Origin: Ferroacidibacillus organovorans
GTDB lineage: Bacteria > Bacillota > Bacilli > Alicyclobacillales > SLC66
NCBI RefSeq assembly: GCF_001642725.1
Contig: NZ_LSUQ01000022.1
Coordinates: forward strand, 1-41,736
DNA: 41,736 nt
Direction: 5' to 3'
Made by a program: the position numbers and the translations under genes. The notes under the pieces are model-generated. The model was given only the letters and a program-made list of their open reading frames with translations. It was not told the DNA's origin and made no database searches. Within the stretch, counting starts at the first letter, position 1. Each line of letters starts with the position of its first letter. Positions 7,992 to 24,305 of this stretch are shown here, piece by piece.

Positions 7992-8018
7992 GACAAAGCA
8001 CCATGTGTATGAAAAAAA

Positions 8019-9437
8019 TTAGACATTCCAGTTGATCTCAAGATCTTGATTGGGACGAAGAAGGATCGTTTTGATGGCGGCCCGTAAAACTGCTTGGCGA
8101 GCGTCAAAATCCAGATCGTCCCAGCTCTGATCGATCAGACGCATAAGATTGAACAGGTCCTCTTTACGTGCGGGCTCGGGCGCTGCCTCCTCCAACGTAT
8201 CACGTTGTAACCATAACGCGCGTTTCTCGGCTTCTAATGCATCGATTCGTTCTTTCAGATGAGATGGCTGAATGAACCCTTCCTCAAAAGCGTCGTACCA
8301 TCGGTTTAATCGATGATCAATCTGGGTTAATTTTTCTTCAATCGCGGATAACACCACGCATGATTGGCGTTGTTCTTCAGTAGAGAGCTCAATTTCTGTG
8401 CGCAGGTCTTCCATGTCAATGGCGGTTGATCTCACCTTAGCGATGATCCAAGCTTCGAGTTTTTCTTGAGGGAAATAGCCTAATTGGCAGTGTTCTTGCC
8501 CTTTTCGATCTCTTTTGCGCACATGTTGATTCTTACAGGCGTAGTATTCGTAGGTATGTGTTTGTCTCTTTGTGCGAACGCGAATGACAGAGCTCCCGCA
8601 TAAGCCGCAACGACACAAACCGGAAAGCAAGTATGCGCCTGTCGATGTCAGACCGTTGCGGCGACGAGCCGTTTCATTTTGAACCATTGTGTATAGATCC
8701 AGAGGGATGATTGCCTCATGCTGACCCTCCACAGGCTCCGAAGGGCCGTTGGGTAACCTCCCGGTATAGATGACCCGGTCGAGGATGGATTTAATTCCGT
8801 TGTGATCGACCTTGATATCAGTACTGCGTGCATTGAGCCAATCAGCCAGTTCGAGTCGCGATTTACCTTGGAGATACATCTGGTTTATTTTACGAATGAG
8901 TTCTGCTTTTTCAGGAACGATCACCAACGTTTGATTCTGTTTATCCCAACGGTAACCAAAAGCGACCCTGCCTCCACTCCATCGACCCTGGCGAATCCTC
9001 ATTCGTCGTCCTGACGTTGTTCGCTCAATGATCATGTCACGCTCCAACTGTGCGAATACCGCAAGGATTCCAATGGTTGCCTTGCCCAAAGGTGTCGCGG
9101 TGTCAAAGGGCTCTGTTGAACTTTTGAAAGCGACATTGTTTTTTTCAAAGACATCCTCGAGGAGATGCAACACATCCTTTTGTCTTCGACTAAGACGGTC
9201 GAGTTTATAAACGACGACAAGATCAATTTTTCCTTCTAGGGTGTGCTTGATAAGTCTGGTCATTGCAGGACGATCAAGCTTCGTGCCCGTATAACCGTCA
9301 TCAATATAAAATCGGTAGTCTTCCCAACCCTGTGAGGCACAGTAGGCAATAAGTCGATCTCGTTGGTGATCGATTGAAAATCCCTGCATCGCTTGTTCTT
9401 CCGTGGAAACGCGGATATAGAGGGCAATCTTAGTCAT
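8019..9437 (-). CDS. Large serine recombinase 3
   Basis: A 472-residue large serine recombinase. [21 protein letters not shown] carries the catalytic Ser in YIRVS at residue 10. [45 protein letters not shown] and [12 protein letters not shown] complete the catalytic domain. A recombinase domain, a zinc ribbon ([11 protein letters not shown] ... YYACKNQ...HCQLG) and a coiled coil follow. ATG 9437 is chosen because GGGGTG lies just upstream and the domain starts there; the frame is open to 9533. The stop is 27 bp from the left core and overlaps the out-of-frame stop of spoVR segment 1. Confidence 0.92.
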
Positions 9438-9661
9438 AGCACACCCCATTGACTTTATTGATGTGACTTGATGCCAATGAATGATTGCTTCACCGTTATG
9501 ATATTTACGTTGTTTTGCAAAATGCGGCTCCACAACTCATATTTAAAAACAATCAAGAGGATATACGTATTCAGTTGGAGGTTTATAACCACAAATAACG
9601 ATTCGATAAGCTGGCAAACGGACGTGCCGCTTGAGCATAGCCTTAATTAGGGGGTGTGCTT

Positions 9662-9802
9662 GTGGAGGAAAAACCGATCAAATTAAATCCGGATGCGGCA
9701 CGGTTGATTTTACGCCTGTGTGTTGAGGCCATACGTAGAGCGAACGCGAAACGGGGAAGAGAACGGGTAGAGGGCGTACAAAATCTTCAAGAGGGCGCTT
9801 AG
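9662..9802 (+). CDS. 46-residue basic protein divergent from recombinase 3 (candidate accessory factor)
   Basis: GTG start with AGGGGG (9649-9654) 7 nt upstream. The product (VEEKPIKLNPDAARLILRLC then EAIRRANAKRGRERVEG) is basic and probably helical. It is divergent from recombinase 3 across about 225 bp. No known family is recognised. Size and location fit a directionality factor or small DNA-binding regulator for element 3; that is inference. It is shorter than many gene callers report. Confidence 0.5.
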   Translation: MEEKPIKLNPDAARLILRLCVEAIRRANAKRGRERVEGVQNLQEGA

Positions 9803-9807
9803 CCTTC

Positions 9808-9974
9808 TTATGTAGGACAGGCCACAGTGAGTATGTATGCACGAGTAAACACCCGATATACGCACTGCAAATCTTCAGCTAAGTGTAACAAAGCATTTCG
9901 AATCCGTTGCCTTGCGTGTGGAGTTAGTTTGTCTATAAATTTTTGTGCGTCTTTGCTCAGGAGTAGATTGTATA
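9808..9974 (-). pseudogene. Decayed RelE/ParE-type toxin remnant
   Basis: Read on the minus strand, IYNLLLSKDAQKFIDKLTPH then ARQRIRNALLHLAEDL closely resembles the N terminus of RelE/ParE toxins. The similarity stops there and 18 unrelated residues lead to a TAA. No ATG, GTG or TTG start is present. It lies immediately downstream of the antitoxin stop. The catalytic C-terminal half is missing, so it should be inactive. Confidence 0.65.
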
Positions 9975-9975
9975 T

Positions 9976-10092
9976 TCAGTTTTCCACGAAGATCTCATCA
10001 AAGGGAACGAAGTCGCCATTTCTCATCTCTTGCCGAATCCGTTTATATTCTGCAATCTCTGCGTCTGTCACGGGTTCATCATCCTCGTTCAT
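9976..10092 (-). CDS. Small antitoxin-like protein
   Basis: A 38-residue acidic peptide MNEDDEPVTDAEIAEYKRIR then QEMRNGDFVPFDEIFVEN. The pattern with a terminal FVPFDEI segment resembles the C-terminal toxin-binding tails of small RelB/Phd-like antitoxins. Its ATG overlaps the stop of the upstream cyclodeaminase-family gene (ATGA), so translation is coupled. The toxin remnant follows directly. It is below common gene-length cut-offs. The function is inferred from the toxin-like neighbour. Confidence 0.6.
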   Translation of the reverse strand: MNEDDEPVTDAEIAEYKRIRQEMRNGDFVPFDEIFVEN

Positions 10093-11039
10093 GAATCACT
10101 TGCTTTCTTTGTACGGGAGGCAATTTTCATGATTTCGTTGGCAACAACAACCTCTGTTCCTGCTAAGCCCACAGAGCAGAATAGAGTAATATCGGTTTCT
10201 GTCATTCTTCCGGATGCTTTTCCACATACGATTTCGGACAGTTGCACAATGCGATTTTCACATTTCGTATCCACCAAGAAATGGGGTGTTTTATAAGCGT
10301 GAAGCTGTTCGATCGAGTCCGTCGCGATGATCGTACTCTTAATGCCCAAATCGAGGGGTACCTCATGCCAATTTTTAGTTTTTGGGCCAACCGTATTGAT
10401 GTGTGTTCCTGGTTTGAGCCAGTCGGATTCGAATACAGGAGTGCCACTGTTGGTCGCACAGATGACGATATCGGCATCTTCGATGCAATCTCTTGGGGAA
10501 GTGGCAACTGCGATATTCGCATGGATCTTCTTGCGCATTCCCTCTGCAAATGCTTCTCGGTTTTCTTGCTTGCGGCTATAAACCTTAATACTTTTAATGT
10601 TTCGTACAGCCACGGCTGCCTCCAATTGTGTCCGCGCTTGTAGTCCCGTACCCATCACGGCGATTTTTTTTGCATCGACTCGAGCCATGGCGTTTATTGC
10701 TGCGCCACCGATTGCGCCAGTACGAATGGCACCGATGAGATTGCCGATGACCACTCCCTTAAAAACACCCGTATCCGAGTCAAAGACGCACACGAGCTGT
10801 TGATGACCCTCTGCATCATTTTCGTACGTATCGTAGACACGAAATCCAGTAACCTTTTCGAGTCCAGTTGCGGCTCCTGCCGTAAAAACCAAGTTGCCCT
10901 GTTCCGCTTCCACACGGAAACGTGGCGGTGATACAAGGGTTCCGTTTATTTGCTCCTGAAAGCAACGTTCGATGGCGTTCACGATCCGCTTCATGGAGGC
11001 AAACGATTCAACATCGTGATCCGTAAGAATGGAGTACAT
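10089..11039 (-). CDS. Ornithine cyclodeaminase/mu-crystallin family protein
   Basis: A 316-residue member of the OCD/mu-crystallin family (NAD(P)-binding Rossmann enzymes: ornithine cyclodeaminase, ketimine reductase, alanine dehydrogenase, opine-type synthases). Seen are FRVEAEQGNLVFTAGAA, the conserved GAIRTGAIGGAAI, the Rossmann motif IAVMGTGLQARTQLEA and ICATNSGTPVFESDWLKPG, then HINTVG. ATG 11039 is preferred (AAGGGG 10 nt upstream); GTG 11048 is too close to the ribosome site. Substrate cannot be assigned. It reads toward the antitoxin gene, with which it overlaps by 4 nt. Confidence 0.85.
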   Translation of the reverse strand: MYSILTDHDVESFASMKRIVNAIERCFQEQINGTLVSPPRFRVEAEQGNLVFTAGAATGLEKVTGFRVYDTYENDAEGHQQLVCVFDSDTGVFKGVVIGNLIGAIRTGAIGGAAINAMARVDAKKIAVMGTGLQARTQLEAAVAVRNIKSIKVYSRKQENREAFAEGMRKKIHANIAVATSPRDCIEDADIVICATNSGTPVFESDWLKPGTHINTVGPKTKNWHEVPLDLGIKSTIIATDSIEQLHAYKTPHFLVDTKCENRIVQLSEIVCGKASGRMTETDITLFCSVGLAGTEVVVANEIMKIASRTKKASDS

Positions 11040-11244
11040 GCAATACACCCCTTCACTGTTCCAATCTGTTACAGTGCGTTTTGTGACGTAAAGGATCTCA
11101 GCGAGTGCCAGGGAACGTCCATCTTCAATTATTTAAAACAAATCGATGCGAATGACAGCATCAAAGGATTCCATTGACCCATGAATAGGACGGTTTAATT
11201 TATTGTGTCTACGTGCTATTGCATAAATCCTCAAGGGATATTAA

Positions 11245-12261
11245 CTAACCATACACCTCTGCCATCCAATTGGCGTAATCGGACACCGCTTGGATCAATT
11301 TTTCCAGCTCTTGCAAAGTATGTATGACTTCTCTGCGCCCCAACTCTCTGTCATCCATGTTGAATAGATCTCTGTTTAAGGAGCGACGCATGTTGTATTC
11401 GAGCCATCCTAACATACCTCCGAAACTGCCGTACACAGCATCTAATACTTCATTGTGCAACGTTCCGCCAGCTTCGAGATAAGCCTGAATCACTCCCTGG
11501 AAACGTTCCTTACTCACGGTCCCGTCGTGACTTCTGCTCCAATTAAATGCCACCTCGACTAATTCTACAGTTGGATGTATATAACCTGCCGATTCCCAAT
11601 CGATCAGATATGGAATGCCTTCGTGATTCCAAATAACATTTTTAGAATCTAAATCCCGATGACTAATGACAAATTTCTGGGGAAGATTGTCTACTGCATC
11701 CTGATACTTTCGAGACCAGTTGGTCACATCTTGCAAGATACTTTCACAAGAAAGACCCCAACACGATGCGTCCCGTCGAGCATTCTCGATGTGATACCTC
11801 TACGTATCGAAGGAAATTGCCGAGAAAGTTGGTAACGCCGAACCATCAATGACAATATCGAGGTTGTGTATCTGGAACAAAATCTCTCCGATGTGCTTAA
11901 CGTGCTCAGACGTACAATTTTCGGGAAGCAACGTGATACCATCGACCCAGTCAAACACCATCACATATTCACCATGCAATTCAATCCATGGTTGACGATC
12001 TACAGTTCTTGCAGAAACCGCACGAATGCCCTTTATATTAGCCTGATGTGCGACTCTTTCTGACATTCTATAATTGGTCTTTGCATCAGGACGAGACATT
12101 ATCTATGAATTCAGTACTTTTATTGCAAATCGTCCGTGGTCTGTCTCTAAACACCACATTCGATGGAGTAATCCGCCTGTGACGGGTTGTGGAGTTCCTT
12201 GGGGAATTCCAATTTCAAAACCATCGCATATCGCATTCAAATCGACACTCAAGCGAGTCAT
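11245..12261 (-). pseudogene. APH-family (aminoglycoside/choline kinase-like) gene with two in-frame TAG codons
   Basis: One continuous frame of 338 codons plus stop, broken only by TAG at 12103-12105 and TAG at 11800-11802. Flanking segments are IPQGTPQPVTGGLLHRMWCL, KVLNS*IMSRPDAKTNYRMS, WIELHGEYVMVFDWVDGITL, FDT*RYHIENA, and the catalytic FVISHRDLDSKNVIWN with LIDWESAGY. These are the Brenner and DFG-like motifs of APH/ChoK kinases. The start ATG 12261 follows GAGGGG. Two nonsense changes with no frameshift suggest a recent pseudogene. Amber readthrough is the alternative. The substrate is unknown; antibiotic resistance should not be assumed. Confidence 0.75.
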
Positions 12262-12292
12262 TTGATTTCCCCTCATCAGTAGAATAAGCCCT

Positions 12293-12721
12293 TTAGCAGA
12301 GTGACAAGCGGCAGTGAAACCGCTCAACTCCGGGATATTTCTCACCAAGGGACCGTATTTCAAATCCATATCTACGATAAAATTCAACCGCATCATGATC
12401 TGTTTCGGCAGTTAATTCCGTGAGATTCTCAAGCATAAGGAGGTTATCTATCATTCTTCGACCAATTCCGCAGTTACGCTTGTGTTCATCGACGGCAATG
12501 TGAAGAATTTCAGCAGAAAATCCTTCTCTCTTGAAACCAATGATGCCTAGCGCTGCGTCGTCATTATCGATGAATACATATAGTTTCGTATCACTTTGCG
12601 AGTACACTTGCACCAAAATATTGCTGAGCTTTTCATCCGTGGCGGAGCCGACCGCGTATGACAACCATTGTTTTATCTGCTCGATGGATGTGATATGGCT
12701 TCTGTACTCAACCAGCGTCAC
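12293..12721 (-). CDS. GNAT-family N-acetyltransferase
   Basis: A 142-residue GNAT protein. The acetyl-CoA binding segment ILHIAVDEHKRNCGIGRRMI shows the Q/RxxGxG/A-type loop (RNCGIG). The C-terminal LTAETDHDAVEFYRRYGFEI is also typical. GTG 12721 is chosen because GGGAGGG is about 6 nt upstream. Substrate is unknown. It lies between psuG and the APH-like gene in the same direction and may be co-transcribed. Confidence 0.85.
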   Translation of the reverse strand: MTLVEYRSHITSIEQIKQWLSYAVGSATDEKLSNILVQVYSQSDTKLYVFIDNDDAALGIIGFKREGFSAEILHIAVDEHKRNCGIGRRMIDNLLMLENLTELTAETDHDAVEFYRRYGFEIRSLGEKYPGVERFHCRLSLC

Positions 12722-12786
12722 AAGCGACCCTCCCTTCCTCAGCAACCAAGCTTCGTTTGTCTCCCGTGAATCAAATCCAAACGATG

Positions 12787-13716
12787 TTATTTAGCGAGTT
12801 CTACAGCCAACAGCGCACCTACGTGCGCATTGTTCTTTACCAGTGCCACATTTGTCTCCAGGCTTTTACCATCGGTCAGTTCTTTAATTTTATCGAGAAG
12901 AAAAGGGGTTACGTCCTTGCCCCTGATGTGTTTCCGATGCGCTTCGTCCAGCGCTTCTGTAATGACTTTTTCAATTTCTTTTGCATCCATTGCGAATTCC
13001 TCGGGGACAGGATTCGCAATGACAGCCCCGCCATGGAGTCCGAGTTTCCACTTCGTGTGTAGGAATGAAGCTAATGCCTCCGGGCTGTCGAGCGAAAAGT
13101 TTGTCTGGAATCCACTTGTGCGACTGTAGAATGCAGGGAACTCGGTGGTCTGGTAGCCAATGACTGGGACGCCGTATGTCTCCAGGTATTCGAGTGTAAG
13201 TTCAATATCGAGGATCGATTTTGCGCCAGCACAGACAACGGCCACGTTGGTCTGCGCAAGCTCGTTCAAGTCCGCAGAGATGTCCATCGTTTGTTCGGCG
13301 CCGCGATGTACACCGCCAATACCACCCGTGACAAATACGCGGATACCCGCAAGCTGAGCGCAAATCATCGTTGCAGCAACCGTGGTCGCGCCACTCTGTC
13401 CTTGTGCGAGAACAAATGCCAAATCACGGCGACTGACCTTTGTGATACTGTCTCGATTTTCAGGGCATCCGAGCCATTCAAGGTTCTCATCGGAAAGTCC
13501 GATATGGATTTTTCCGTTCAAAATTGCAATCGTCGCCGGGACCGCGCCATGGTATCGAATAATGGCTTCGACTTCCTTTGCCGTTTGTACATTGGTTGGA
13601 TAAGGCATGCCATGTGAAATAATGGTCGACTCAAGCGCGACAATTGGCTTCTCAGTTCTCTTTGCCTCCATTACTTCATCCGAAAAATGCAACCATTGGT
13701 TTAACGACGGGTTCAT
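12787..13716 (-). CDS. psuG: Pseudouridine-5'-phosphate glycosidase
   Basis: A 309-residue PsuG (indigoidine synthase A family), which splits pseudouridine 5'-phosphate to ribose 5-phosphate and uracil. Seen are [39 protein letters not shown], the glycine-rich [40 protein letters not shown] and [12 protein letters not shown] 13716 is preferred because GGAGAG is 9 nt upstream; ATG 13725 abuts the ribosome site. It sits 24 bp downstream of psuK, giving a two-enzyme pathway on element 3. Confidence 0.92.
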
Positions 13717-13740
13717 ATCTTCCATCTCTCCTATGATGTT

Positions 13741-14850
13741 CTACAGAATTTCTGACAACCAGGCTTGAGCCTCGCGTGGGTCGATTTCTGTAGATACGGT
13801 TTCTTTTGTCACCAACGTTAGGCTGGACAAGCGAGCGGCAAATTGACATGCCTGTTTGACACTCGCATCGCTGACCATCGCAAAGCAGAAGCCAGCCACG
13901 AATGCGTCACCTGCACCAGTCACATCGACGACGTCGATGCTCTCTGCCGGTATTTTGCCAAAGGTGCCTGCCTCATCCAACCAAGCCACACCATCCCTGC
14001 CCATAGTTGCGACAACGGTCCGACACCCCCTATCTTTCAGTGCGACACATGCGGCGCGAACGCTATCCTCTTTATCGACAGGGATACCTGAAATTGCCTC
14101 CATTTCATCTCGATTGGCGATCAGCGTATGAATCCCGGTAAGGTCTCTTGGCAAGCGCTTGGCTTTGGGACTTGATACCGGAGCAACAATCAGTAAAGTG
14201 CCAGCCCTTGCCGACTCGGTAATGACAAAGGCAAGCGCTTCTGCCGGCAAGTTCGTGTCGACGATCGCAATCGTAGCTTGTTGCAGCACCCGCGATCTCG
14301 GTGTCAACTGCTCGACGGTTAAGTCGTCGTAAATTTCCATATCGGCGAGCGCAACAGTCATACTCCCGTCGACGTCGAGCACCGCAGTGTATGTTCCTGT
14401 GCGGTGTGCAGTCGATCGGATGATCTGGCTGACATCTGTACCAAGGCCCTCAAGGTGCGCGAGTATCATTTCGGCTTCTTTGTCGTTGCCGACCATGGTG
14501 ACAAGCGACGTGGGTAATCCGAGGCGTGTCATATTTTCGGCAATATTTCTTGCAACGCCACCAAATGACTCTACAACAAAAGAGGGGTTCGACGTGCCTA
14601 GCTGGATTGGTTCATACGCTTGAATTTTTCGATCTACATTCGCACCGCCGATGCACAAAATACGCCCTCGCTGTGGCAAAACGTAGGCCCGACCGAGAAT
14701 CTCCCCCTCTTTGATGAGCGCAGAGATATAAGCTGCTACCGCAGGTCTGGATGCATTCATTCGTTCAGCCAAATCTCGTTGGGAGATAAACGGGTTTTCA
14801 CGGATACAATGTAGAACTTCCTGTTTCTTGCTCCGACCCGACTCAGCCAC
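13741..14850 (-). CDS. psuK: Pseudouridine kinase with N-terminal winged-helix domain
   Basis: A 369-residue fusion. Residues about 1-60 form a winged helix-turn-helix (LHCIRENPFISQRDLAERMN then ASRPAVAAYISAL). The remainder is a PfkB/ribokinase-type kinase with GGANVDRKI, the substrate loop SFGGVARNIAENMTRLG and the C-terminal signature DVTGAGDAFVAGFCFAM. The kinase phosphorylates pseudouridine for PsuG. HTH-PfkB fusions of this type occur in several bacteria and may autoregulate. GTG 14850 lies 7 nt after GGAG. Palindromic sites upstream (14864-14897) are candidate operators. Confidence 0.9.
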   Translation of the reverse strand: MAESGRSKKQEVLHCIRENPFISQRDLAERMNASRPAVAAYISALIKEGEILGRAYVLPQRGRILCIGGANVDRKIQAYEPIQLGTSNPSFVVESFGGVARNIAENMTRLGLPTSLVTMVGNDKEAEMILAHLEGLGTDVSQIIRSTAHRTGTYTAVLDVDGSMTVALADMEIYDDLTVEQLTPRSRVLQQATIAIVDTNLPAEALAFVITESARAGTLLIVAPVSSPKAKRLPRDLTGIHTLIANRDEMEAISGIPVDKEDSVRAACVALKDRGCRTVVATMGRDGVAWLDEAGTFGKIPAESIDVVDVTGAGDAFVAGFCFAMVSDASVKQACQFAARLSSLTLVTKETVSTEIDPREAQAWLSEIL

Positions 14851-14863
14851 ATCGTCACTCCTT

Positions 14864-14897
14864 ATAACACATGTTATATTAGGTTAAACAATTGTTT
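14864..14897 (-). promoter_or_regulatory. Candidate operators upstream of psuK
   Basis: The 5-bp inverted repeat ATAAC-ACAT-GTTAT (14864-14877) and the 12-bp palindrome AAACAATTGTTT (14886-14897) lie just upstream of the psuK ribosome site. They may be bound by the HTH domain of PsuK or another repressor. Confidence 0.45.
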
Positions 14898-14973
14898 GTT
14901 AGCAGTCAATCTACGATAGAAATTGCCGCATCGGTGATTTTACATCAATCTGAAATTTTCATATACCTGGTGT

Positions 14974-14981: not shown

Positions 14982-15620
14982 AGCGTACCACCGTATGAAG
15001 ATGGACTATGATTTGGGATTGAGCCGCATCTATGAACTGGTGATTAATTCGAATCCGTGCTACGCATTTCTGCTCGACAGCAATTCTCTCGTGCAAAATA
15101 AATTGGTGAGCGCCCACGTTCTCGCACACTGTGACTTTTTTAAAAACAACATGATGTTTCACCGCACCTCGCGAAATGTCGTTGAAAGTATGGCGGCGAG
15201 CGCGGAACGCTTTCGTACCTATGAGCTGCAATACGGAAAAGATGAGGTGGAAGCATTTCTGGATGCGGCGCTCGCGCTACAGGAACACATCGACCCATCA
15301 GAGCGCGCATTTCGTCATCCGCATACGAAACCGGATTTGCGCGAGGAGCAAGAGCAGTCACCTCGGGTCGGAAAATATGATGATTTATTTGCGCTGGATG
15401 GTCGTTTATCCGATCGTGCGAAGGTGGATGAAAAGAAGGCGGAAAATCGCAAAGCAAAGGGGTTCGCAAAAGACGCACCGCAAAAGGATTTGTTGCTATT
15501 TTTGCAATCGCACAGCAAGATTCTCGCGGAGTGGCAGCGCGACATGCTGACGGTGATTCGCGAGGAGATGCTCTACTTTTGGCCGCAGATTGAGACAAAA
15601 ATCATGAACGAAGGCTGGGC
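14982..15620 (+). CDS. spoVR: spoVR segment 2 (middle)
   Basis: It encodes [106 protein letters not shown] and TKIMNEGWA, all conserved SpoVR blocks. It is open on both sides and interrupted by element 3 (left) and element 4 (right). After 15620 the frame adds 66 unrelated residues before a stop at 15819. Joining base 15620 to 28449 gives NEGWATYWHLRIMRELEL. Confidence 0.93.
15607..15620 (+). repeat. Left attachment core of element 4
   Basis: AACGAAGGCTGGGC, in the spoVR codons for Asn-Glu-Gly-Trp-Ala, identical to 28435-28448. Confidence 0.9.
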
Positions 15621-15725
15621 TTCGGATTGCAAAAATGGTTTTTTTCATAGCGTACGAAAGATCCAAATGACACGAGTGATTCCGAAGGATTCTAGAATCC
15701 CCAACAAGGAGGCAACGCAAGAGCC

Positions 15726-15757
15726 CCCTTGTTTACGTAAACTTCAAGGGAGTTTTT
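15726..15757 (+). terminator. Terminator just inside the left end of element 4
   Basis: CCCTTG (15726-15731) pairs with CAAGGG (15745-15750), enclosing the palindrome GTTTACGTAAAC and followed by TTTTT (15753-15757). It is oriented to stop rightward transcripts, that is read-through from spoVR segment 2. Confidence 0.7.
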
Positions 15758-16247
15758 ATTCAGCCACGTCTGTGCGAACGAAAAACGCTGGCGGTTCTTT
15801 GCCCAAGAGTCGGAGGTAGACATAGCCTTGTCCGCGGTGATGAATCTCATTCTCGAGAGCGTAAGTAAGCCAACTCATCGCCGTGCCGTCAGGTCCACCC
15901 CAAAATGGCTCCGATCGCATGATTGTAAGCGATTCCATAGAAATCGATGGCCAAAGCTTGCGCGTTTGTTCGCGAACGTGTTGTCCATAGGCGAGCGCTT
16001 CTTGGATTGGAGCAGTCCGCAGCTCGTCTGGGATCCCTTCCCACTTCCATTGATCAAGCGCCAAACCCCTCAGATAGGCGTTTTCAATGCCCCAAATCTC
16101 AAAGAGCATCTCGCGAAACGGTCGCATGCCATTTACGGGCTGCTTGTCCATCGCTTCTGCGGCGTCCAAGTCGCGCGCAACAAAATTCGTGAGCCGCCGA
16201 TTCTCTTCCCACACATCCAAAAACCAAGATTTCCAGTCGAATTCCAA
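15756..16247 (-). CDS. DinB-family protein
   Basis: A 163-residue DinB/YfiT-type four-helix protein. Seen are [20 protein letters not shown] and a C-terminal [20 protein letters not shown], whose HxxxH pair is the usual metal-binding site. Many members are metal-dependent thiol or transferase enzymes. TTG 16247 is preferred because AAGGAG (16257-16262) is 9 nt upstream; an upstream ATG at 16274 would place that site inside the gene. Substrate is unknown. It is the first gene inside element 4. Confidence 0.8.
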
Positions 16248-16318
16248 GATGAACACTCCTTTTGAAGAATCCATGGCGTACGTTTGTACGATAGCACACG
16301 TGACATGCCAAAAACATC

Positions 16319-16549
16319 CTATTTTTCCGGTTCCCCATCAAAGAATGTAATCTGTGCCGCGCGCGCGATGTCTTCGTTTGTTTCTTGTTCAATCCATGTG
16401 CGCAAGGCCGCTTCGCGGACAGATTTGCACCACGTGGTGAGTTGTTGCTCTAGATGTGTCCTCACGGTTAAATCCGGGATTTCAGCGAGTTGTGTAAACG
16501 ATTGTTCGACATCGCCTATCTTAATCGAAAATCTGACGCGAACGGCCAT
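16319..16549 (-). CDS. Small hypothetical protein, coupled to 16556-16741
   Basis: A 76-residue acidic protein (MAVRVRFSIKIGDVEQSFTQ then LAEIPDLTVRTHLEQQLTTW) with no signal peptide or membrane segment. The start ATG 16549 follows GAGG within the stop region of the preceding small ORF, so the two are probably translated together. The family is not recognised. It may be a regulator or directionality factor for element 4, but nothing in the sequence proves it. Confidence 0.6.
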   Translation of the reverse strand: MAVRVRFSIKIGDVEQSFTQLAEIPDLTVRTHLEQQLTTWCKSVREAALRTWIEQETNEDIARAAQITFFDGEPEK

Positions 16550-16555
16550 CTTTCC

Positions 16556-16741
16556 TCACCCCATGTTCATGGATATGAGTGGAGAATCGCGGGACAGCCC
16601 TGTGCAATTTGCTTTGTGATCTATGGTGATATTGCACACCTTCGTCTGAAACGCCACATTGACCAATTTGGGATTGAAATCTACCGTAGAGAGTAGCTGA
16701 ACAGAGACAGGACCTAGAATGCGCCACCCACTCATAGGCAT
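16556..16741 (-). CDS. Small hypothetical protein upstream of 16319-16549
   Basis: It encodes 61 residues (MPMSGWRILGPVSVQLLSTV then DFNPKLVNVAFQTKVCNITI). Its TGA stop precedes the next start by 6 bp in GGGGTGAGGAAAGATG, which supports it as a real gene. The start is uncertain: no strong ribosome site precedes ATG 16741, and the frame is open further upstream into recombinase 4. No family is recognised. Confidence 0.4.
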   Translation of the reverse strand: MPMSGWRILGPVSVQLLSTVDFNPKLVNVAFQTKVCNITIDHKANCTGLSRDSPLISMNMG

Positions 16742-16788: not shown

Positions 16789-18309
16789 ATGCGTGAAAAT
16801 GCAGCGAAAAAGATTGCGATTTACTGTCGCGTATCCACGGATGAGCAGGCAAAAGAAGGCGTGTCGCTCGATGAGCAAAAGGCGAGGCTTCACGCGTACT
16901 GTCGCGCGATGGGTTGGGCGACAGAAGCTGTAGAGTATATTGATGACGGCTATTCGGCGAAAAATATGGAGCGTCCGGCGCTTGAACGCTTGTTGCGACA
17001 TGTGAAGGCAGGGCGCGTTGAGCGGCTCATGGTGACAAAACTCGATCGATTGAGTCGGCGTTTGCTTGATTTGTTGACGCTGATCGAACTGTTTCAAAAC
17101 CACGACGTTTCATTCGTATCGACAAGCGAATCCTTTGATACAGCGACGCCTTCCGGTCGCTTGACACTGCAGGTGCTCGGAGCTGTCGCGGAGTTTGAGC
17201 GTGAGCGCATACGTGAGCGCGTTTTTGACAACATGCTGCATGCAGCAAAAATGGGGAAATGGTTGACACAAGCTCCATACGGCTATCGGCTCGACGCGAA
17301 AAAGTTGGTTATTTGTGAAATGGAGGCGCTTCTTGTTCAGCGCGTCTTTCGCATGTTTGTCGAAGATGGTTTGGGATACTTTCAAATTGCAAAGAAATTG
17401 AATCAGGAACACATCCCTTCTCGCAATGGGAAGGCGTGGTCGATTCGGAGTGTCAAAATCATGCTGAGTAATCCTGCCTATGCGGGAACGCTTGTGTGGA
17501 ATCGCGTTGATTCGAGTCAAAAGCGTCGAGTGCTTAAAGAAGAAGACGCGTGGGTCGAGATGCGCGACGCTCACCCAGCGATTGTTGAACAGGCGCTGTG
17601 GCATCAGGCGCAGCAGCGCATCGCGAGCCATCCGCGAATGCCGCCGCGCGCGCAAGCCAGCCCTCATCTGCTGGGTGGCTATTTGCGTTGTGGAGAATGC
17701 GGCGCGGCGATGTCGATCGGTTGGTCTGGAAATCCGCGGCGAACGCGCGTCTATCGCTGTTCTGCGTATCGAAATCAGGGGCTTTGTCAGAGTAAGCCGT
17801 ATCGTGCAGACGATGTGGAGCGGTGGTTTGTGGAGGCGCTTGAATGCGTGGTGGAGCCTGTGAATCATGCGCGGCACACCGCTTTGGTTCAGCGTGTGCG
17901 GGCGGAGCAGATCGCCAAATTGGATCAGAGGATGCACGCCGCGAAAATGCGCTATGACAGACAGGTAGAAGCGTATACGGCGGGACTCATCGAGATGGAT
18001 ACCCTTGCGCGTGAAAAGGTGGCGCTGAAGCGATGTGTCGCAGAGTACGCAAAGGAGATGTCGACGACGGATTCATCTTCACATGATAAGGAGCTGGAGG
18101 AACGCCTGCGCGGACGGGCGGTTACGCTCGGCGATGCGCTAACCGTGCTTCCGGCTGACTGGATCAAAGCGAAACTGCGCACATGGATTCACAGCGTCAT
18201 TCTTCACGGACGTGAGGATCTTGAGATTGTGTTGTGTCCTGATCTGACGATGGTTTCTGATGCAATGGATCAATCCATTGGAGGATTTTTAGAGTATGGT
18301 GTCGAATGA
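16789..18309 (+). CDS. Large serine recombinase 4
   Basis: A 506-residue large serine recombinase. KKIAIYCRVSTDEQAKEGVS has catalytic Ser16. [40 protein letters not shown] and FERERIRERV complete the resolvase domain. A recombinase domain (APYGYRLD...), a zinc ribbon (LRCGECGAAMS ... YRCSAYRNQGLCQS) and a coiled-coil tail follow. GAGG occurs upstream but its spacing is long. The catalytic part resembles recombinase 3 more than 1 or 2. Its stop is only 44 bp before the diterpene synthase start with no terminator between, so read-through into the terpene operon is possible. Confidence 0.92.
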   Translation: MRENAAKKIAIYCRVSTDEQAKEGVSLDEQKARLHAYCRAMGWATEAVEYIDDGYSAKNMERPALERLLRHVKAGRVERLMVTKLDRLSRRLLDLLTLIELFQNHDVSFVSTSESFDTATPSGRLTLQVLGAVAEFERERIRERVFDNMLHAAKMGKWLTQAPYGYRLDAKKLVICEMEALLVQRVFRMFVEDGLGYFQIAKKLNQEHIPSRNGKAWSIRSVKIMLSNPAYAGTLVWNRVDSSQKRRVLKEEDAWVEMRDAHPAIVEQALWHQAQQRIASHPRMPPRAQASPHLLGGYLRCGECGAAMSIGWSGNPRRTRVYRCSAYRNQGLCQSKPYRADDVERWFVEALECVVEPVNHARHTALVQRVRAEQIAKLDQRMHAAKMRYDRQVEAYTAGLIEMDTLAREKVALKRCVAEYAKEMSTTDSSSHDKELEERLRGRAVTLGDALTVLPADWIKAKLRTWIHSVILHGREDLEIVLCPDLTMVSDAMDQSIGGFLEYGVE

Positions 18310-18353
18310 ATAAGATTATTGTAGGTTGACGGTTTTTTGTGAGGGATCTAGGG

Positions 18354-19265
18354 ATGGCCAATTCGGTAATTAAAAATTACTCGGACGACATTCGAACTGA
18401 GATTTATCGAGTGACGAATGAGCTACTGGAGCACCTGCACCTGTATTATCAGCCATTTCCTGAATTTGATGCTGTCCGATTTCCGGCAACGGCGCTGACG
18501 ACCGCGACGGAAGGCTTTTTTTTACCGATGATGCTACTAAAAAAGATGGTTGTTATTCCTGTGTGGATTTTTACGATTGATGACGTGATTGATCGTAAAT
18601 TGTTGTCGGATGAAGAATTGGATGCTCGACTGAAAAGTTATGAATGGATCATCACGCAGGGGCTGGATGCGTCTGACGTGTATGGTCGCGTGTTGAAGGA
18701 TCTTTATGACCAGCTAAAAGAGAGGCCGCTTTTTCACGCGTTGCGAGAAGTGTGGGAAGAAGCCTATTTTCGAATGATCCGTGGGATGCTTCTTGAAGCG
18801 CGTGAAACCGTTCGAGTCCCATCGTATGATGAATATCTCGAACACGGATCGTACAGCATTGGCGTTCCGCTCTATGTCGTTTCGACGTGGATTCTCGGTT
18901 CTTATGAAGAAACATTAACGCATCTAGAAGTCCTAAAAAAGCTGATGATGCTGTCGGCGAAAAGCATTCGGCTTGCCAACGACATGCGTACATACGAAAA
19001 AGAGAAAATGGAAAAGAACCTAAACGCGCTTGTGATCATGGAGAATACGTACGAGTCAGAAGGCTACGCGCCTGACGCGGCGAAAGCGTTGGCGTCTGCA
19101 TTTGTACGGGAAGAGTTGGAGCGCTATCGCACGCAGTTTCTTGAATTGGTTGATGAATCGGTACTGCCAATCAGAACGCTGTCAAACGTTACTCAGTTTT
19201 CGCTGTCGTTTTATGATGAGCATGATTTTCATACCGTTGATGCGGGGGAGATCCACCATGTTTGA
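18354..19265 (+). CDS. Class I (ionising) terpene synthase, probably diterpene
   Basis: A 303-residue class I terpene synthase. The aspartate-rich motif is DDVID (residues 76-80) and the second metal motif is NDMRTYEKE (residues 209-217), which fits NDxx(S/T)xxxE. Both bind Mg2+ and diphosphate. ATG 18354 has GAGGG 8 nt upstream. It overlaps the next gene by 8 bp. Together with the class II cyclase and GGPP synthase downstream, it should convert a cyclised C20 diphosphate (for example a copalyl-type diphosphate) into a diterpene hydrocarbon or alcohol. The product cannot be predicted. No P450 or other tailoring enzyme is visible. Confidence 0.88.
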   Translation: MANSVIKNYSDDIRTEIYRVTNELLEHLHLYYQPFPEFDAVRFPATALTTATEGFFLPMMLLKKMVVIPVWIFTIDDVIDRKLLSDEELDARLKSYEWIITQGLDASDVYGRVLKDLYDQLKERPLFHALREVWEEAYFRMIRGMLLEARETVRVPSYDEYLEHGSYSIGVPLYVVSTWILGSYEETLTHLEVLKKLMMLSAKSIRLANDMRTYEKEKMEKNLNALVIMENTYESEGYAPDAAKALASAFVREELERYRTQFLELVDESVLPIRTLSNVTQFSLSFYDEHDFHTVDAGEIHHV

Positions 19266-20763
19266 AAACGCGGGTGAAGACGATGCTTCAAAAACGGATG
19301 TGAAGCGCAGAGCGCGTGACTTGGTCGAGCGATTGCAGGGCGGCGCGATGGGATCGATCGCTTATGACACTTCGTGGGTGGCGCGCTTAAAAAATCGGGA
19401 TGGTTCTCCGAAATTCCCGACTACGATCGCCTGGCTGCGCGCGCATCAACACGCGGACGGAAGTTTTGGCGCGCGCGATGAAACGTTGCATGACCGGCTG
19501 ATTTCTACGCTCGCGAGCGTTAATGCACTGACGACGTTGCACGATGAAACGGATAGCGAGCGCATCTCTCGCGCACTTGACTATGTGGCGCGAAACGGTG
19601 GTCGTCTGCGCGCGGATGACGCTGAAACGATTGGTTTTGAGTTGCTTTTTCCTTCGCTACTCGAAGAGGCAAAAGGCTATGGATATCGACTGCCTTTTGA
19701 ATCCTTCGGATGGGTTGAAGAACTGGGGAAAAGAAAGTTGAGCGCAGTTCCCGCGTCGTGGATCTACGAAGCGGAGTCTCCACTTATCCACAGCATCGAG
19801 TTTCTCGGAAAAACAGCACAGATTGATCGCATGGCGCAACTCGTTTCGGTCAACGGATCGATCGGAAACTCTCCATCCGCCTCGGCATTTGTCTATGGGC
19901 AAACGGACGACCCCCGACTGGAGGCGTATTTGCGTCAGATTGTAGAGACGTCTGAGGATGGCGGTGTCTGCAATGTTCAACCGTTTGAAATTTTCGAAAC
20001 GGCGTGGGTGTACTTCAATCTACAGTTGGCTGGAATCACGGTTGAGGGAATGCAAAAAGGATTGCATGAGATTGAGCTGTCATTCAGGCCGCAGGGTGTC
20101 GGGATTTCCCGCAATGGCCTAATGCCAGACGCGGATGACAGTGCACTCGCCGTCAATGTGCTAGCTCGCGCTGGACGCCGAATGTCACTCCAGTTTTTGG
20201 ATTTTTATCAAGCGGAACGCGGATTTTTATGTTTTCCGTATGAGCGCAACCCTTCGATTTCAACCAATATCCACATCCTTGACGCGCTGCGTGCGTATGA
20301 GCCGCAAGAAGTGGCGCCTCATGTGGATAAGATTCTCACGTTTTTGCGCGAGGCTCAACAGGAAAATGCGTATTGGAAAGATAAATGGCATGCCTCTCCA
20401 TTCTATACAACAGCGCATGCGATTCTGGCGCTGCGAGGATTGACTGAGTCACTGATAAAAACGGCGGTCGATTATTTAATTGAATCGCAACGGCCTGATG
20501 GTTCGTGGGGGATTTTTAGGGGTACGGCGGAAGAAACGGCGTATTGTGTACAGGCGTTGACGCTTGCGCTTCCTTATTCTGCGGATGTGGACAAGCGGCT
20601 TGCACGTGCACTTTCTTTTTTAAGTAGCGAGGGGGCAAAAAAACCTCACTCTGAACTCTGGATTGGGAAGGGGCTCTATGCGCCAACCTATGTGATTGAC
20701 GCTACGATTCTAAGCGCGCGCGCGCTCTACCAGAGATGGAGGTACTCTCATGAAAAAGGATGA
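19258..20763 (+). CDS. Class II diterpene cyclase (copalyl diphosphate synthase type)
   Basis: A 501-residue protein with the protonating DxDD motif as DADD at residues 291-294 (LMPDADDSALAVNVL). It has alpha-barrel repeats with QW-like motifs (QHADGSFGARDE, QRPDGSWGIFRGTAEETAYC). GSIAYDTSWVARL near the N terminus is typical of class II diterpene cyclases. It should cyclise geranylgeranyl diphosphate by protonation, keeping the diphosphate for the class I enzyme. ATG 19258 lies inside the 3' end of the upstream gene; longer in-frame starts have no ribosome-site support. It overlaps the GGDEF gene by 14 bp, indicating a tight operon. Confidence 0.9.
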   Translation: MFENAGEDDASKTDVKRRARDLVERLQGGAMGSIAYDTSWVARLKNRDGSPKFPTTIAWLRAHQHADGSFGARDETLHDRLISTLASVNALTTLHDETDSERISRALDYVARNGGRLRADDAETIGFELLFPSLLEEAKGYGYRLPFESFGWVEELGKRKLSAVPASWIYEAESPLIHSIEFLGKTAQIDRMAQLVSVNGSIGNSPSASAFVYGQTDDPRLEAYLRQIVETSEDGGVCNVQPFEIFETAWVYFNLQLAGITVEGMQKGLHEIELSFRPQGVGISRNGLMPDADDSALAVNVLARAGRRMSLQFLDFYQAERGFLCFPYERNPSISTNIHILDALRAYEPQEVAPHVDKILTFLREAQQENAYWKDKWHASPFYTTAHAILALRGLTESLIKTAVDYLIESQRPDGSWGIFRGTAEETAYCVQALTLALPYSADVDKRLARALSFLSSEGAKKPHSELWIGKGLYAPTYVIDATILSARALYQRWRYSHEKG

Positions 20764-23068
20764 AGAGTTTCAACTCCTGACGAAATCGACACAGTGGGGC
20801 GAGCTTAGCGAGATTGAAAAAGTCGTCATCATGGAAAAACGCATAGTATTTGTGCGCTGGCTCGGCATCGTTTGTGCGGCGGTGACTGTTCCCTTTTTGG
20901 GGTATCAGTGGGCTGCTTTTATGTTTGGAATCATCGGATTTGCTGCGGTCTATAATGTGATTTTTCAATTTTATATCATTGCGAAAAAGAGCGCGTGGCT
21001 TTTGAAACCAGCCATTATCACCATCGGGGATATCATGATGGCGTCTGCCGTCGTGTTTATCACGGGGGGGATTCACTCTGACTTTTTTGTGGTCTATTTC
21101 TTGATTGCAATTCTCTCTGCGATTCGTTTCGGGGGACGCGCGGCTGGTATTTCCACCTTGTTGTCGATCCTGTTTTACTCGCTGGTGATTTTCTTGCGCG
21201 GTCCGGTGCGACCGGTCTACGATTTAGCGAACATTTTATTCAGAATGGGATTTGTCGCGACCACAGGTATTTTTGTGGGGTATGTGGGGGACAAAGCGCG
21301 GCAGGTTGAACTCGATTTGCAACGGGAGTTGGATCAGGCGCATGCCCATTTGAATGAGAGCACGGCACTTCTCAATGCAAACCTTGAACTCGATTCGGTA
21401 TTACAAGTGGCCGTCGCGCAATCGCGGTTACTGATTGACGCGGAATTCGGATTGATCCTCACCAAAGAGAGCGGCCTGTCCTTTTTGCCGCGCGACCTTA
21501 AAGATAATTATGACCGTCCCTATTATTCCGATGTGCGTTCAGAAGCCGTGATGCGTGAGGAGGATGTCGCGTACATTATCGAGTTGTTTCAAGATGTCAC
21601 GCGCTTATCGTCGATTTTTCAAAAGCGGATCTCCGGCGAGTCTTCAGTGGAACTCGTGGAGTGCCACATGAATCCTCAATTGGCGCGTATCCTCACGTTA
21701 AAAGAAAACACCATGTATTATCTCGTATCCGCGCAATTGTTTACTGGAGAGACAGAGATTGGGACGCTTTATTTGCTGAAAACGCACAAGCCTGCCCAAG
21801 AGTTGAGGAAAACCGTTCTAAACGCATTGTCCGTCTTTACGCTCAGAATCTCAGCGGCGATCACGAATTCACTGATGTACACCCAATCGAGAATGCAGGC
21901 TGTTACGGATTCAGTGACTGGTCTCTACAATCATCGTTTTTTGCATGAGTTTCTGAATGATGAGATCAAAAAGGTGGTAGAGCAGCATACCCCCTTGTCG
22001 CTGATTGTATTGGATGTGGATTCATTTAAACAGTTTAATGATATGTACGGCCACTCGATCGGCGACACAGCACTGCGCTCTGTCGCGGATATGATCCGGC
22101 CAGCTATTAAAGATCGGGGGATTGCGGCGCGCTTCGGGGGGGATGAGTTTGTCATTATTCTGCCAGGGATGTCCCATCAAGAAGCGATGACTGTTGCGGA
22201 GTCGATTCGTGCGCGCGCGAAAAATTATAGGCACTTAACAAAAAATCACGCACTCGCGACACTTTCGATCAGTTTGGGCGTAGCTACCGCGCCGCAATCG
22301 GGCGAGACATCACACGCTCTTTTCCACGCCGCCGACCTTGCGCTGTACGATGCAAAGCATGCGGGTAAAAATGTTGTGCGATCGGCAGAATCCACGCGTG
22401 AAGGAGGCGCGTTTCGCGATGAACATCTCACAGCGCTTGGCGAATATCGCTCACTGACAGATTCTGTGGAGGTTATGCAGCGGGATCTTGACGCTGTGAA
22501 TCCGCAGATGGTGGAAACGCTCCTCGCGGCGCTCAAGGCGAAAGACCCAGGCACGTACGAACACTCGAAGAGTGTTTCAGCGTATGCTGAGCGACTCGCG
22601 CGGCGCCTTGGCCTGAGTGATCAAGAAGTGGAGACGATTCGGATAGGATCACTCATTCACGATGTTGGCAAGATTGGAATACCAGATTATGTATTGACAA
22701 AAGCCGCGAAACTCACTAAAGAAGAATACGATATGATTAAAGAACATCCGACGATTGGCGTAGAAATTTTAAAACCACTTCGTCTCTATGAAGGATATCT
22801 TCCCATCGTACGCTATCATCATGAATGGATGAATGGAAAAGGGTACCCTCACCAGCTCAAAGGGAGGGAAATTCCGCTTGAGGCGCGCATTGTTGCGATT
22901 TGTGACGCGTTTGATGCGATGACGTCCAACCGACCCTATAAGGCTGCGATGTCTTATGATAAGGCGCTGCATACGATTGAGGGTTTGGTCAATGAACAGT
23001 TCGATCAGGATGTGTGGGAACAGTTCCGCGAAATGATTCAAGAAGAAATCTCTGTGATTGCAAACTGA
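20750..23068 (+). CDS. Membrane GGDEF and HD-GYP protein (c-di-GMP turnover) inside the terpene operon
   Basis: A 772-residue protein. Residues about 30-180 contain five or six hydrophobic spans. A coiled coil and GAF-like region follow (about 190-375). The GGDEF domain has an intact RFGGDEF signature at 462-467 and no clear RxxD inhibitory site. The C-terminal HD-GYP domain has HDVGK (637-641) and HHEWMNGKGYP (690-700), typical of active c-di-GMP phosphodiesterases. It could both make and degrade c-di-GMP. GGAGG lies 7-8 nt before the ATG. It lies between the class II cyclase and GGPP synthase genes, overlapping the first by 14 bp and 3 bp from the second. Why a second-messenger enzyme sits in a terpene operon is unknown. 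Confidence 0.92.
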   Translation: MKKDEEFQLLTKSTQWGELSEIEKVVIMEKRIVFVRWLGIVCAAVTVPFLGYQWAAFMFGIIGFAAVYNVIFQFYIIAKKSAWLLKPAIITIGDIMMASAVVFITGGIHSDFFVVYFLIAILSAIRFGGRAAGISTLLSILFYSLVIFLRGPVRPVYDLANILFRMGFVATTGIFVGYVGDKARQVELDLQRELDQAHAHLNESTALLNANLELDSVLQVAVAQSRLLIDAEFGLILTKESGLSFLPRDLKDNYDRPYYSDVRSEAVMREEDVAYIIELFQDVTRLSSIFQKRISGESSVELVECHMNPQLARILTLKENTMYYLVSAQLFTGETEIGTLYLLKTHKPAQELRKTVLNALSVFTLRISAAITNSLMYTQSRMQAVTDSVTGLYNHRFLHEFLNDEIKKVVEQHTPLSLIVLDVDSFKQFNDMYGHSIGDTALRSVADMIRPAIKDRGIAARFGGDEFVIILPGMSHQEAMTVAESIRARAKNYRHLTKNHALATLSISLGVATAPQSGETSHALFHAADLALYDAKHAGKNVVRSAESTREGGAFRDEHLTALGEYRSLTDSVEVMQRDLDAVNPQMVETLLAALKAKDPGTYEHSKSVSAYAERLARRLGLSDQEVETIRIGSLIHDVGKIGIPDYVLTKAAKLTKEEYDMIKEHPTIGVEILKPLRLYEGYLPIVRYHHEWMNGKGYPHQLKGREIPLEARIVAICDAFDAMTSNRPYKAAMSYDKALHTIEGLVNEQFDQDVWEQFREMIQEEISVIAN

Positions 23069-23071
23069 AGG

Positions 23072-24184
23072 ATGCGAGGATGGCATAATTTGAAACGTAA
23101 AATGGCCAGAGTACAAATGAGCGAAGATGCAATCATGAAAGAGTTGGACTCCTACATGAAATCTGTGATTGAAAGGGGTTTGGACGGGAAAATTCGCAAT
23201 GTGATTGAGTACCATCTCGGGTGGCGTGACATTGATTTTTCTGAACTGGAGTTTGGGAATATCGGCAAGCGCGGCAGACCAATGATGTGTATTTTGACGA
23301 GTATGCTCTTTGCGTATGATTATAAACGTTCTTTTTCAGTGGCTGCGGCAATCGAGTTTATCCATAGTTTTTCGCTGATTTACGATGACATCCAAGATCG
23401 GGACACCATTCGCCGGGGACGTCCCTCCGTTTGGAGTTTATGGGGGGAGGATGAGGCGATTAATGTGGGGTGTGTGCTGCAAACGATGGTTTATGAGGTG
23501 ATTGCAGATCCTGAGAATGAGAATAAACCTGCGCAACTCTCGTGGTTGATTCAATCTGTCAATCGCACGATGTGGAGAGTATGCAATGGACAACAACTCG
23601 ATTTAGAGCTCACCAAAAGTAGGCATCATGTAACGCAGACTCAGTATTTAGAAGTCATCACCGGAAAAACGGCGGCCTTATTTGAGGCGGCAGCTTATCT
23701 CGGCGCGTTTTGTTCAAACGCTAATGAGCGGGAATTGGCACTTTGTCGCTTGTTTGGAGAGAATGTTGGCCTTGCTTTTCAAATTTTTGATGATGTCGTT
23801 GGAATTTGGGGTAGTCGAGAACAAGGACTGGACAAGCCCAACCTCGATCTAGAGCATCGAAAAAAAACGTATCCGATCATCCATGCGCACGAGAATTGTC
23901 AAACGGACGCCGATCGGCTGATCCTCCATCGCTACTATGAGAAGGAAGAACTCAGTGAGCGCGATTTGATCAACATCACGGAACTGCTGAACCGCTGTGA
24001 TTCGCGATCGAAGAGCCTTGAAATCGGATATCAGTATCTCAAAATTGCAATGCAAGCACTTGATGACATAGCAGGGAATGAAGCGATCAAGACGCGTATT
24101 CGCATTTGGGTTAATTACGTTATCGACAAACAGCTTTCTACATTACAAGGTTACATTAAACTTGATGACGAGCTTGTAAAATAA
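23072..24184 (+). CDS. Polyprenyl diphosphate synthase (probable GGPP synthase)
   Basis: A 370-residue trans-isoprenyl diphosphate synthase. The first aspartate-rich motif is DDIQDRD (DDxxD at 105-109) followed by RRGRPS. The second is FDDVVG, with Gly replacing the last Asp. KRGRPMMC is the substrate-binding region. It should supply C20 geranylgeranyl diphosphate to the cyclases upstream; chain length is inferred from the operon. Alternative in-frame starts at TTG 23090 and ATG 23102 have better-spaced upstream purines than ATG 23072, so the first 6-10 residues are uncertain. It is the last gene of the four-gene operon. Confidence 0.88.
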   Translation: MRGWHNLKRKMARVQMSEDAIMKELDSYMKSVIERGLDGKIRNVIEYHLGWRDIDFSELEFGNIGKRGRPMMCILTSMLFAYDYKRSFSVAAAIEFIHSFSLIYDDIQDRDTIRRGRPSVWSLWGEDEAINVGCVLQTMVYEVIADPENENKPAQLSWLIQSVNRTMWRVCNGQQLDLELTKSRHHVTQTQYLEVITGKTAALFEAAAYLGAFCSNANERELALCRLFGENVGLAFQIFDDVVGIWGSREQGLDKPNLDLEHRKKTYPIIHAHENCQTDADRLILHRYYEKEELSERDLINITELLNRCDSRSKSLEIGYQYLKIAMQALDDIAGNEAIKTRIRIWVNYVIDKQLSTLQGYIKLDDELVK

Positions 24185-24261: not shown

Positions 24262-24305
24262 AAGCATAACGATTTAGCATAACGATATACTAAATCGTTA
24301 TGCTT
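24262..24305 (+). promoter_or_regulatory. Long inverted-repeat operator for the LacI-type regulator
   Basis: AAGCATAACGATTTAG (24262-24277) and CTAAATCGTTATGCTT (24290-24305) form a perfect 16-bp inverted repeat. The 12-bp spacer itself repeats CATAACGAT. Position at the promoter and the nearby LacI gene suggest this is its operator. The transcript would also fold into a strong hairpin. Confidence 0.7.

Follow-up and report, generated by a model that had tools for sequence, protein, structure and literature searches.

A c-di-GMP signalling gene inside a predicted diterpenoid operon of Ferroacidibacillus, and membrane signalling genes behind related diterpene cyclases in an actinomycete class

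The window analysed here is a stretch of 41,736 nucleotides of Ferroacidibacillus organovorans (contig NZ_LSUQ01000022.1 of a genome of 3.03 Mb in 98 contigs). It contains a gene for a membrane protein with GGDEF and HD-GYP domains, the two domain types of cyclic di-GMP (c-di-GMP) synthesis and breakdown, placed directly behind the gene of a class II diterpene cyclase. The signalling gene is probably linked in function to the diterpene pathway, as judged from its placement, its conservation and the recurrence of this kind of gene pair in a second phylum. The complete reading, a four-gene diterpenoid operon with a receptor-type c-di-GMP enzyme as its third gene, has in our judgement about an even chance of being correct. 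The four genes are as follows.

18339..19265, + strand: class I terpene synthase (PF19086), with motifs DDVID and NDMRTYEKE; the start may be at 18354.
19258..20763, + strand: class II diterpene cyclase, with motif DADD; best solved relative 6vpt, expectation value (E) 1e-68.
20750..23068, + strand: GGDEF-HD-GYP membrane protein of 772 residues with an ATG start, from the open reading frame and Pfam.
23072..24184, + strand: polyprenyl (geranylgeranyl diphosphate (GGPP)-type) synthase, with motif DDIQD.

The class I and class II genes overlap by 8 bp, and the reading frames of the class II cyclase and the GGDEF-HD-GYP protein by 14 bp (20750-20763). The stop of the latter is followed after 3 bp by the frame of the GGPP synthase, for which later in-frame starts (e.g. 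23090 and 23102) are possible. The sequence GGAGG at 20738-20742, 7 nt 5' of the ATG, would be the ribosome-binding site of the signalling gene. We infer that the four genes (18339-24184) are transcribed together as one diterpenoid operon, and the embedding of the c-di-GMP gene in a terpene operon that had been put forward in the original prediction was borne out by both junctions and by the terpene motifs, all of which were found. Promoter and terminator scans of the window gave no excess over shuffled sequence (7 against 9.0 and 9 against 8.0). Between the operon and the MFS gene lies an inverted repeat of 16 bp with a 12-nt spacer (24262-24305), a candidate terminator or operator; a similar palindrome occupies the same place in the congener described below.

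The domains of the signalling protein were assigned as follows.

20837..21319, + strand: membrane domain, residues ~30-190, with about six hydrophobic segments; RegB/PrrB-like.
21347..21874, + strand: middle region, residues ~200-375, GAF-like by position only; no Pfam match.
21899..22372, + strand: GGDEF domain, residues 384-541 (PF00990, E 9e-45); no inhibitory site (I-site).
22529..23014, + strand: HD-GYP domain (HD_5), residues 594-755 (E 1e-38; 4mcw, E 7e-37).

The hydrophobic segments fall between residues 25 and 180, and the middle region without a Pfam match spans about 175 residues. A motif scan located GGDEF at residue 463 and DVDSFKQFND at 422 in the GGDEF domain, and HDVGK at 637 and HHEWMNGKGYP at 690, together with DAFDA, in the HD-GYP domain; the core catalytic motifs were present in both output domains and in all three terpene enzymes. 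The RxxD I-site was not found before GGDEF, where the sequence reads KDRG. In the alignment with 4mcw, KDPGTYEH of the window protein stands opposite KDPETQNH, so that a Gly occupies the position of the Glu four residues before the first His, which we take to be a ligand of the third metal; at this position the protein departs from the trinuclear HD-GYP type of 4mcw, and the congener has Gly as well. The earlier statement that all visible catalytic motifs are intact is thus correct for the GGDEF and HD-GYP motifs and has to be amended at these two sites. Neither the missing I-site nor the change from Glu to Gly would by itself abolish activity.

The class II cyclase can be classed as Rv3377c-like by its similarity to 6vpt, which we presume to be Rv3377c; it also matches the ent-copalyl diphosphate synthase 5bp8 (E 3e-45). 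It is predicted to form a bicyclic diphosphate from GGPP. Judged from enzyme families and motifs, the GGPP synthase would supply GGPP, the class II enzyme would convert it to the bicyclic diphosphate, and the class I enzyme would release a diterpene.

Of the 18 genomes of the family in the collection, two belong to the genus, the window genome and one congener. The congener has the identical gene order, the 14-bp overlap and the GGAGG; there, the start codon of the GGPP synthase gene shares 1 bp with the stop codon before it. The synteny is therefore not confined to one strain; such confinement had been named as speaking against the original prediction. The ratio of nonsynonymous to synonymous substitution rates (dN/dS) of the signalling gene was 0.054 (772 codons, dS ~1.2), compared to 0.104 for the class I, 0.115 for the class II and 0.045 for the GGPP synthase gene; purifying selection acts more strongly on the signalling gene than on either terpene synthase gene, and about as strongly as on the GGPP synthase gene. 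The membrane domain is 95% identical (dN 0.025, dN/dS 0.031), with a dN below that of every whole gene of the operon, and the linker is 62% identical. The dS over the operon is ~0.8-1.3, yet the overlap and the frames have been kept. Searching with the window protein gave 16 GGDEF/HD-GYP places in its own genome, itself included. Since these places are few, the 14-bp overlap is retained and the dN/dS is low, the placement of the gene is more than chance.

Beyond the genus the arrangement was not found in the Bacillota genomes searched, and the synteny search suggested earlier thus succeeded in the congener and stopped there. Full matches to the class II cyclase occurred in 2 of 59 genomes of the order (the two congeners), and weak partial matches, mostly of squalene-hopene-type appearance, in 19 others; at E 1e-12 only the genome itself matched among 398 sampled genomes of the class, a sample without the congener, and five genomes of other groups gave no match. 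The full-length signalling protein (E 1e-60) was likewise restricted to the two congeners among the 59 order genomes, 21 others matching from residue 339 onwards. A search for related loci with this protein returned 35 distant and uninformative GGDEF or HD-GYP loci, and a plasmid search 4 records, each matched over about half its length only. The class I synthase was found in the genome itself and in one other among the 398 class genomes, and in the genome itself plus one weak match (E 2e-4) among 398 genomes of the phylum. Overall, the operon looks like an acquisition of the genus Ferroacidibacillus. The relative in the other Bacilli genome is a lone class I synthase gene (L100, 9166-10155; ~35% identical); the 20 kb fetched around it gave no match at E 1e-3 to the class II, GGDEF or GGPP synthase proteins. 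A serine recombinase gene (16789-18309), encoded on the same strand as the class I synthase, ends ~30 bp 5' of it and is present in the congener too (81% identical); it may be a trace of the route by which the operon arrived.

Related cyclases with a signalling gene behind them were found in an actinomycete class. In a sample of 346 genomes drawn from the phylum of an actinomycete metagenome-assembled genome (G800, locus L011), the class II query matched 8 at E 1e-20, in 10 places. One class accounts for seven of these eight genomes, and all 39 of its genomes in the collection were searched. This class is probably Rubrobacteria, because 2 kb of one of its loci (18 kb) are 75% identical to a plasmid of Rubrobacter indicoceani; class I synthases are reported from Rubrobacter radiotolerans in a passage of PMC7192455. 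A cyclase profile located 11 places in 8 of the 39 genomes; 10 are complete and the eleventh (L123, in G1149) runs off its contig. In all 10 complete loci a membrane signalling gene lies directly 3' of the cyclase on the same strand. The output is GGDEF or GGDEF-EAL in seven (three of them cut by contig ends) and a histidine kinase in three, with L145 and L146 assigned by similarity and motifs only:

L114, L118, L119, L120 (EAL cut by contig end) and L146: GGDEF-EAL.
L121 and L145: GGDEF, the remainder cut.
L115 and L116: PAS-kinase-receiver-Hpt.
L117: PAS-kinase.

With likely start codons chosen for the sensor genes, six of the 10 loci (L115, L116, L117, L118, L119 and L145) have an overlap of 1-4 bp between cyclase stop and sensor start; in the others the distance to the first possible sensor start is 249 bp (L114), 333 bp (L120), 482 bp (L121) and 212 bp (L146). 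GGDEF is intact in 9/9 GGDEF-bearing actinomycete proteins read and EAL in the 7 that extend to it.

The first ~165 residues of the actinomycete sensor proteins behind cyclases are homologous to one another. No Pfam family was found for this domain, the best match among 14 members having E 0.0017. A profile of eight members detected it in 10 of the 39 genomes in 17 rows, counted as 16 loci because two rows (G1010:C46) are adjacent pieces. The neighbourhoods of all 16 were inspected, and the cyclase lies directly 5' in 10 of them. As 8 of these 10 copies went into the profile, which is bound to find them, the weight rests on two counts, the 10/10 cyclases followed by the domain and the 6/16 domain copies without a cyclase in view. 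The constant companion of the cyclase in these genomes is the membrane domain, with a varying output, and it is the constancy of this domain among differing outputs that would make it, and not c-di-GMP, the link to the terpenoid. The AlphaFold model of the domain (mean predicted local distance difference test (pLDDT) score 82) was aligned with the hexahelical domain of adenylyl cyclase 9 at Z 12.4 (155 residues, root mean square deviation 3.2; VIA-align), with adenylyl cyclase 8 at Z 9.6 and with the diguanylate cyclase ImcA at Z 9.2 (153-155 residues each), values to be read knowing that helical bundles inflate Z, up to ~13; unrelated rows, mostly helical bundles covering part of the domain, reach Z 8.6 over 86 residues. 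PMC11606603 reports adenylyl cyclase membrane domains to be receptors of fatty acids and anandamide, and PMC12505454 reports a bacterial cyclase inhibited through its membrane domain by unsaturated fatty acids. A plasmid search with the actinomycete sensor domain gave no match. Near three of the sensor genes lie genes of small proteins that have signal-like N-termini and share a KNQI stretch (L136, 5306-5707; L146, 438-917; L147, 3-386).

A sensor common to the window and the actinomycetes was considered and rejected: comparison of the actinomycete domain, as alignments A1/A4, gave no match in either Ferroacidibacillus genome and an hhalign probability of 2.6%. Two apparently unrelated sensors therefore sit behind this kind of cyclase, and the second phylum supports the principle and not the particular sensor of the window. 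A tree of 16 cyclases does not unite the window cyclase and its congeneric counterpart with those of the actinomycetes; its deep forks are weak and long branches meet there. Either the pairing arose twice or the sensor was replaced. Kinase outputs occupy two places in the actinomycete subtree (forks 100/98 and 85/82), which suggests at least two changes of output within that group.

In the mechanism we propose, the lipophilic product, or a derivative of it, would partition into the membrane and there act on the GGDEF-HD-GYP protein through its membrane domain. This would tilt the balance between cyclase and phosphodiesterase and so set the cellular c-di-GMP level. The overlap of the frames would hold the amounts of enzyme and receptor in a steady ratio. 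A diterpenoid (or derivative) is favoured as ligand because the membrane domain is the constant element and membrane domains of adenylyl cyclases are reported as lipid receptors; that it acts directly on this domain is a proposition we regard as equally open to being right or wrong. The sensing of membrane terpenoids, raised in the original prediction, is in this way preferred to coincidence by the ten actinomycete loci and their common membrane domain, and is supported in part only. More tentatively, and with somewhat less confidence than disbelief, it can be proposed that in two or more bacterial phyla diterpenoids are produced expressly as ligands of hexahelical membrane receptors, whose genes directly follow. 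Each such pair would be a module of signalling by a self-made lipid, its receptor domain a terpenoid sensor with exchangeable outputs (c-di-GMP turnover or phosphorelay), and the terpene-nucleoside genes of the tubercle bacillus would be receptor-less relatives.

Several observations weigh against a diterpenoid receptor. No homology was detected between the window membrane domain and the actinomycete one, and the structure predicted for the full window protein is unusable (pLDDT 35). The I-site is present in all nine actinomycete GGDEF proteins and missing from that of the window. The resemblance to adenylyl cyclase 9, besides the inflation of Z, is weak in Foldseek (best E 1.0). Upstream DNA is available for 15 of the sensor-domain genes, and in five of these (L135, L136, L137, L147 and L149; 0.8-9 kb) no cyclase is seen there. 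Three of them (L136, L137 and L149) are histidine kinases with an Rv3378c-like gene nearby and no class II cyclase; L135 (GGDEF-EAL), L147 (kinase) and L148, which begins at a contig end so that its upstream side cannot be judged, show no terpene gene in view. Two genomes, G902 (L148) and G1010, have the domain and no cyclase match. At E 1e-3, the stretches fetched around class II cyclases of other bacteria gave no GGDEF, kinase or sensor-domain match in any of four loci (L102, L103, L122 and L160), although L103 has an annotated sensor kinase ~6 kb away; pairing with a signalling gene is not a general property of class II cyclases. The region around the operon is collinear between the two Ferroacidibacillus species, and the synteny with the congener is for that reason modest to weak evidence. 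Finally, residues 30-197 match RegB/PrrB/ActS kinases (E 1.4e-6), which is compatible with redox sensing.

The last of these observations suits reverse control, in which the protein senses the redox or quinone state or envelope stress, and c-di-GMP adjusts diterpenoid production or membrane use; the operon placement fits either direction. The RegB match reaches 27 bits against a whole-model family cut-off of 350, a shortfall that would say little about the membrane part alone because the model includes the kinase, and the site of the RegB-type quinone-binding motif, presumably GGxxNPF, reads GGIHSDFF. Rfam at gathering thresholds returned zero families for the window, which therefore holds no known c-di-GMP riboswitch, and the differing actinomycete outputs, c-di-GMP or phosphorelay, are more readily explained by a common input than by a common output. 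On balance we consider reverse control unlikely. Rather less likely still is that the genes share a transcript and no function, a general c-di-GMP gene having been caught by rearrangement and having persisted since the species are close. Such an origin would agree with the occurrence of the pairing in one genus only among the Bacilli genomes searched, with the collinear surroundings and with the serine recombinase genes nearby; it is at odds with the conservation of overlap and frames at the dS given above and with the same kind of pairing in every complete locus of another class. Products of overlapping genes often interact, and the signalling protein could serve as a membrane scaffold, recruiting the cyclase or regulating it, and turn over c-di-GMP as a secondary activity. 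Membrane domain and cyclase are indeed the constant elements in the second phylum, yet a pure scaffold would have no need of the GGDEF that is intact in the window protein and in the actinomycete proteins, or of their intact EAL, and we give this explanation little credence. A diterpenoid acting through the membrane domain is thus preferred to each of the three.

The arrangement was compared to known systems. The isotuberculosinol or terpene-nucleoside operon of Rv3377c-Rv3378c type, represented by a mycobacterial locus (L122) recognised via its Rv3378c-like protein (E 8e-145 to 3wqk), resembles the window in the cyclase family (L122 cyclase to 6vpt, E 2e-259) and in a GGPP-type synthase within the operon. 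It differs in that a class I terpene synthase is encoded in the window and that the stretch of L122 fetched gave no GGDEF, kinase or sensor-domain match. Three Rv3378c-like queries found nothing in the window, with E values of up to 1 admitted, and the window is by this measure not a terpene-nucleoside locus. The Streptomyces-type cluster on a plasmid of S. olivoreticuli (L102) likewise combines polyprenyl, class I and class II enzymes, with class I 5' of class II and a cyclase 35% identical to that of the window; unlike the window, it has precursor-supply genes and no c-di-GMP gene. Membrane GGDEF-HD-GYP and GGDEF-EAL enzymes and the membrane nucleotide cyclases with hexahelical domains of lipid-receptor type (mammalian membrane adenylyl cyclases, Rv1625c) share with the window protein the order of a membrane domain followed by a nucleotide-cyclase output, whereas the window gene sits directly behind a diterpene cyclase gene.

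The actinomycete loci also bear on the origin of the tuberculosis terpene nucleosides. An Rv3378c-like gene lies beside the Rv3377c-like cyclase in all 11 cyclase loci (L114-L121, L123, L145 and L146); it is divergent from the cyclase in the 10 complete loci, and in L120 and L145 it is truncated where the contig begins. The copy in L118 matches Rv3378c structures with E 2e-47, and a plasmid search with the Rv3378c-like protein gave no match. According to PMC11476799 (2024), early attempts to identify orthologues of Rv3376, Rv3377c or Rv3378c outside mycobacteria were unsuccessful. Homologues of Rv3377c and Rv3378c, not proven orthologues, adjoin in a non-mycobacterial class with a sensor gene next to them, and harmless organisms of this class could serve to study their role.

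Among the titles and abstract openings listed from an open-licence library, none connects a diterpene cyclase to a gene of c-di-GMP turnover. The parts belong to known families; the recurrent pairing and the Pfam-less actinomycete sensor domain appear to be new. We know of no role for most bacterial diterpenoids in the organisms that make them. The fixed pairing of a cyclase with a receptor-type enzyme allows a direct test, with the product as input and c-di-GMP as output. If correct, the proposal would define a class of terpenoid receptors and tie specialised metabolism to the switch between biofilm and motility; diterpenoids may serve certain bacteria as self-directed signals.

Other features of the window lie upstream of the operon. 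About 7 kb (about 7992-14967), absent from the congener, interrupt spoVR, with a serine recombinase gene (8019-9533, - strand) at one end; the sequence TTTGGTAA is common to both junctions and to the uninterrupted site. The insert is a candidate skin-like element interrupting a sporulation gene. The SpoVR match ends at model position 270 of 407 in both species (window 14995-15819; congener L074, 16203-17135). At 16047-16620, a block of 574 bp is 98% identical between the species, compared to 80-85% in the neighbouring aligned blocks, which suggests that it was recently transferred.

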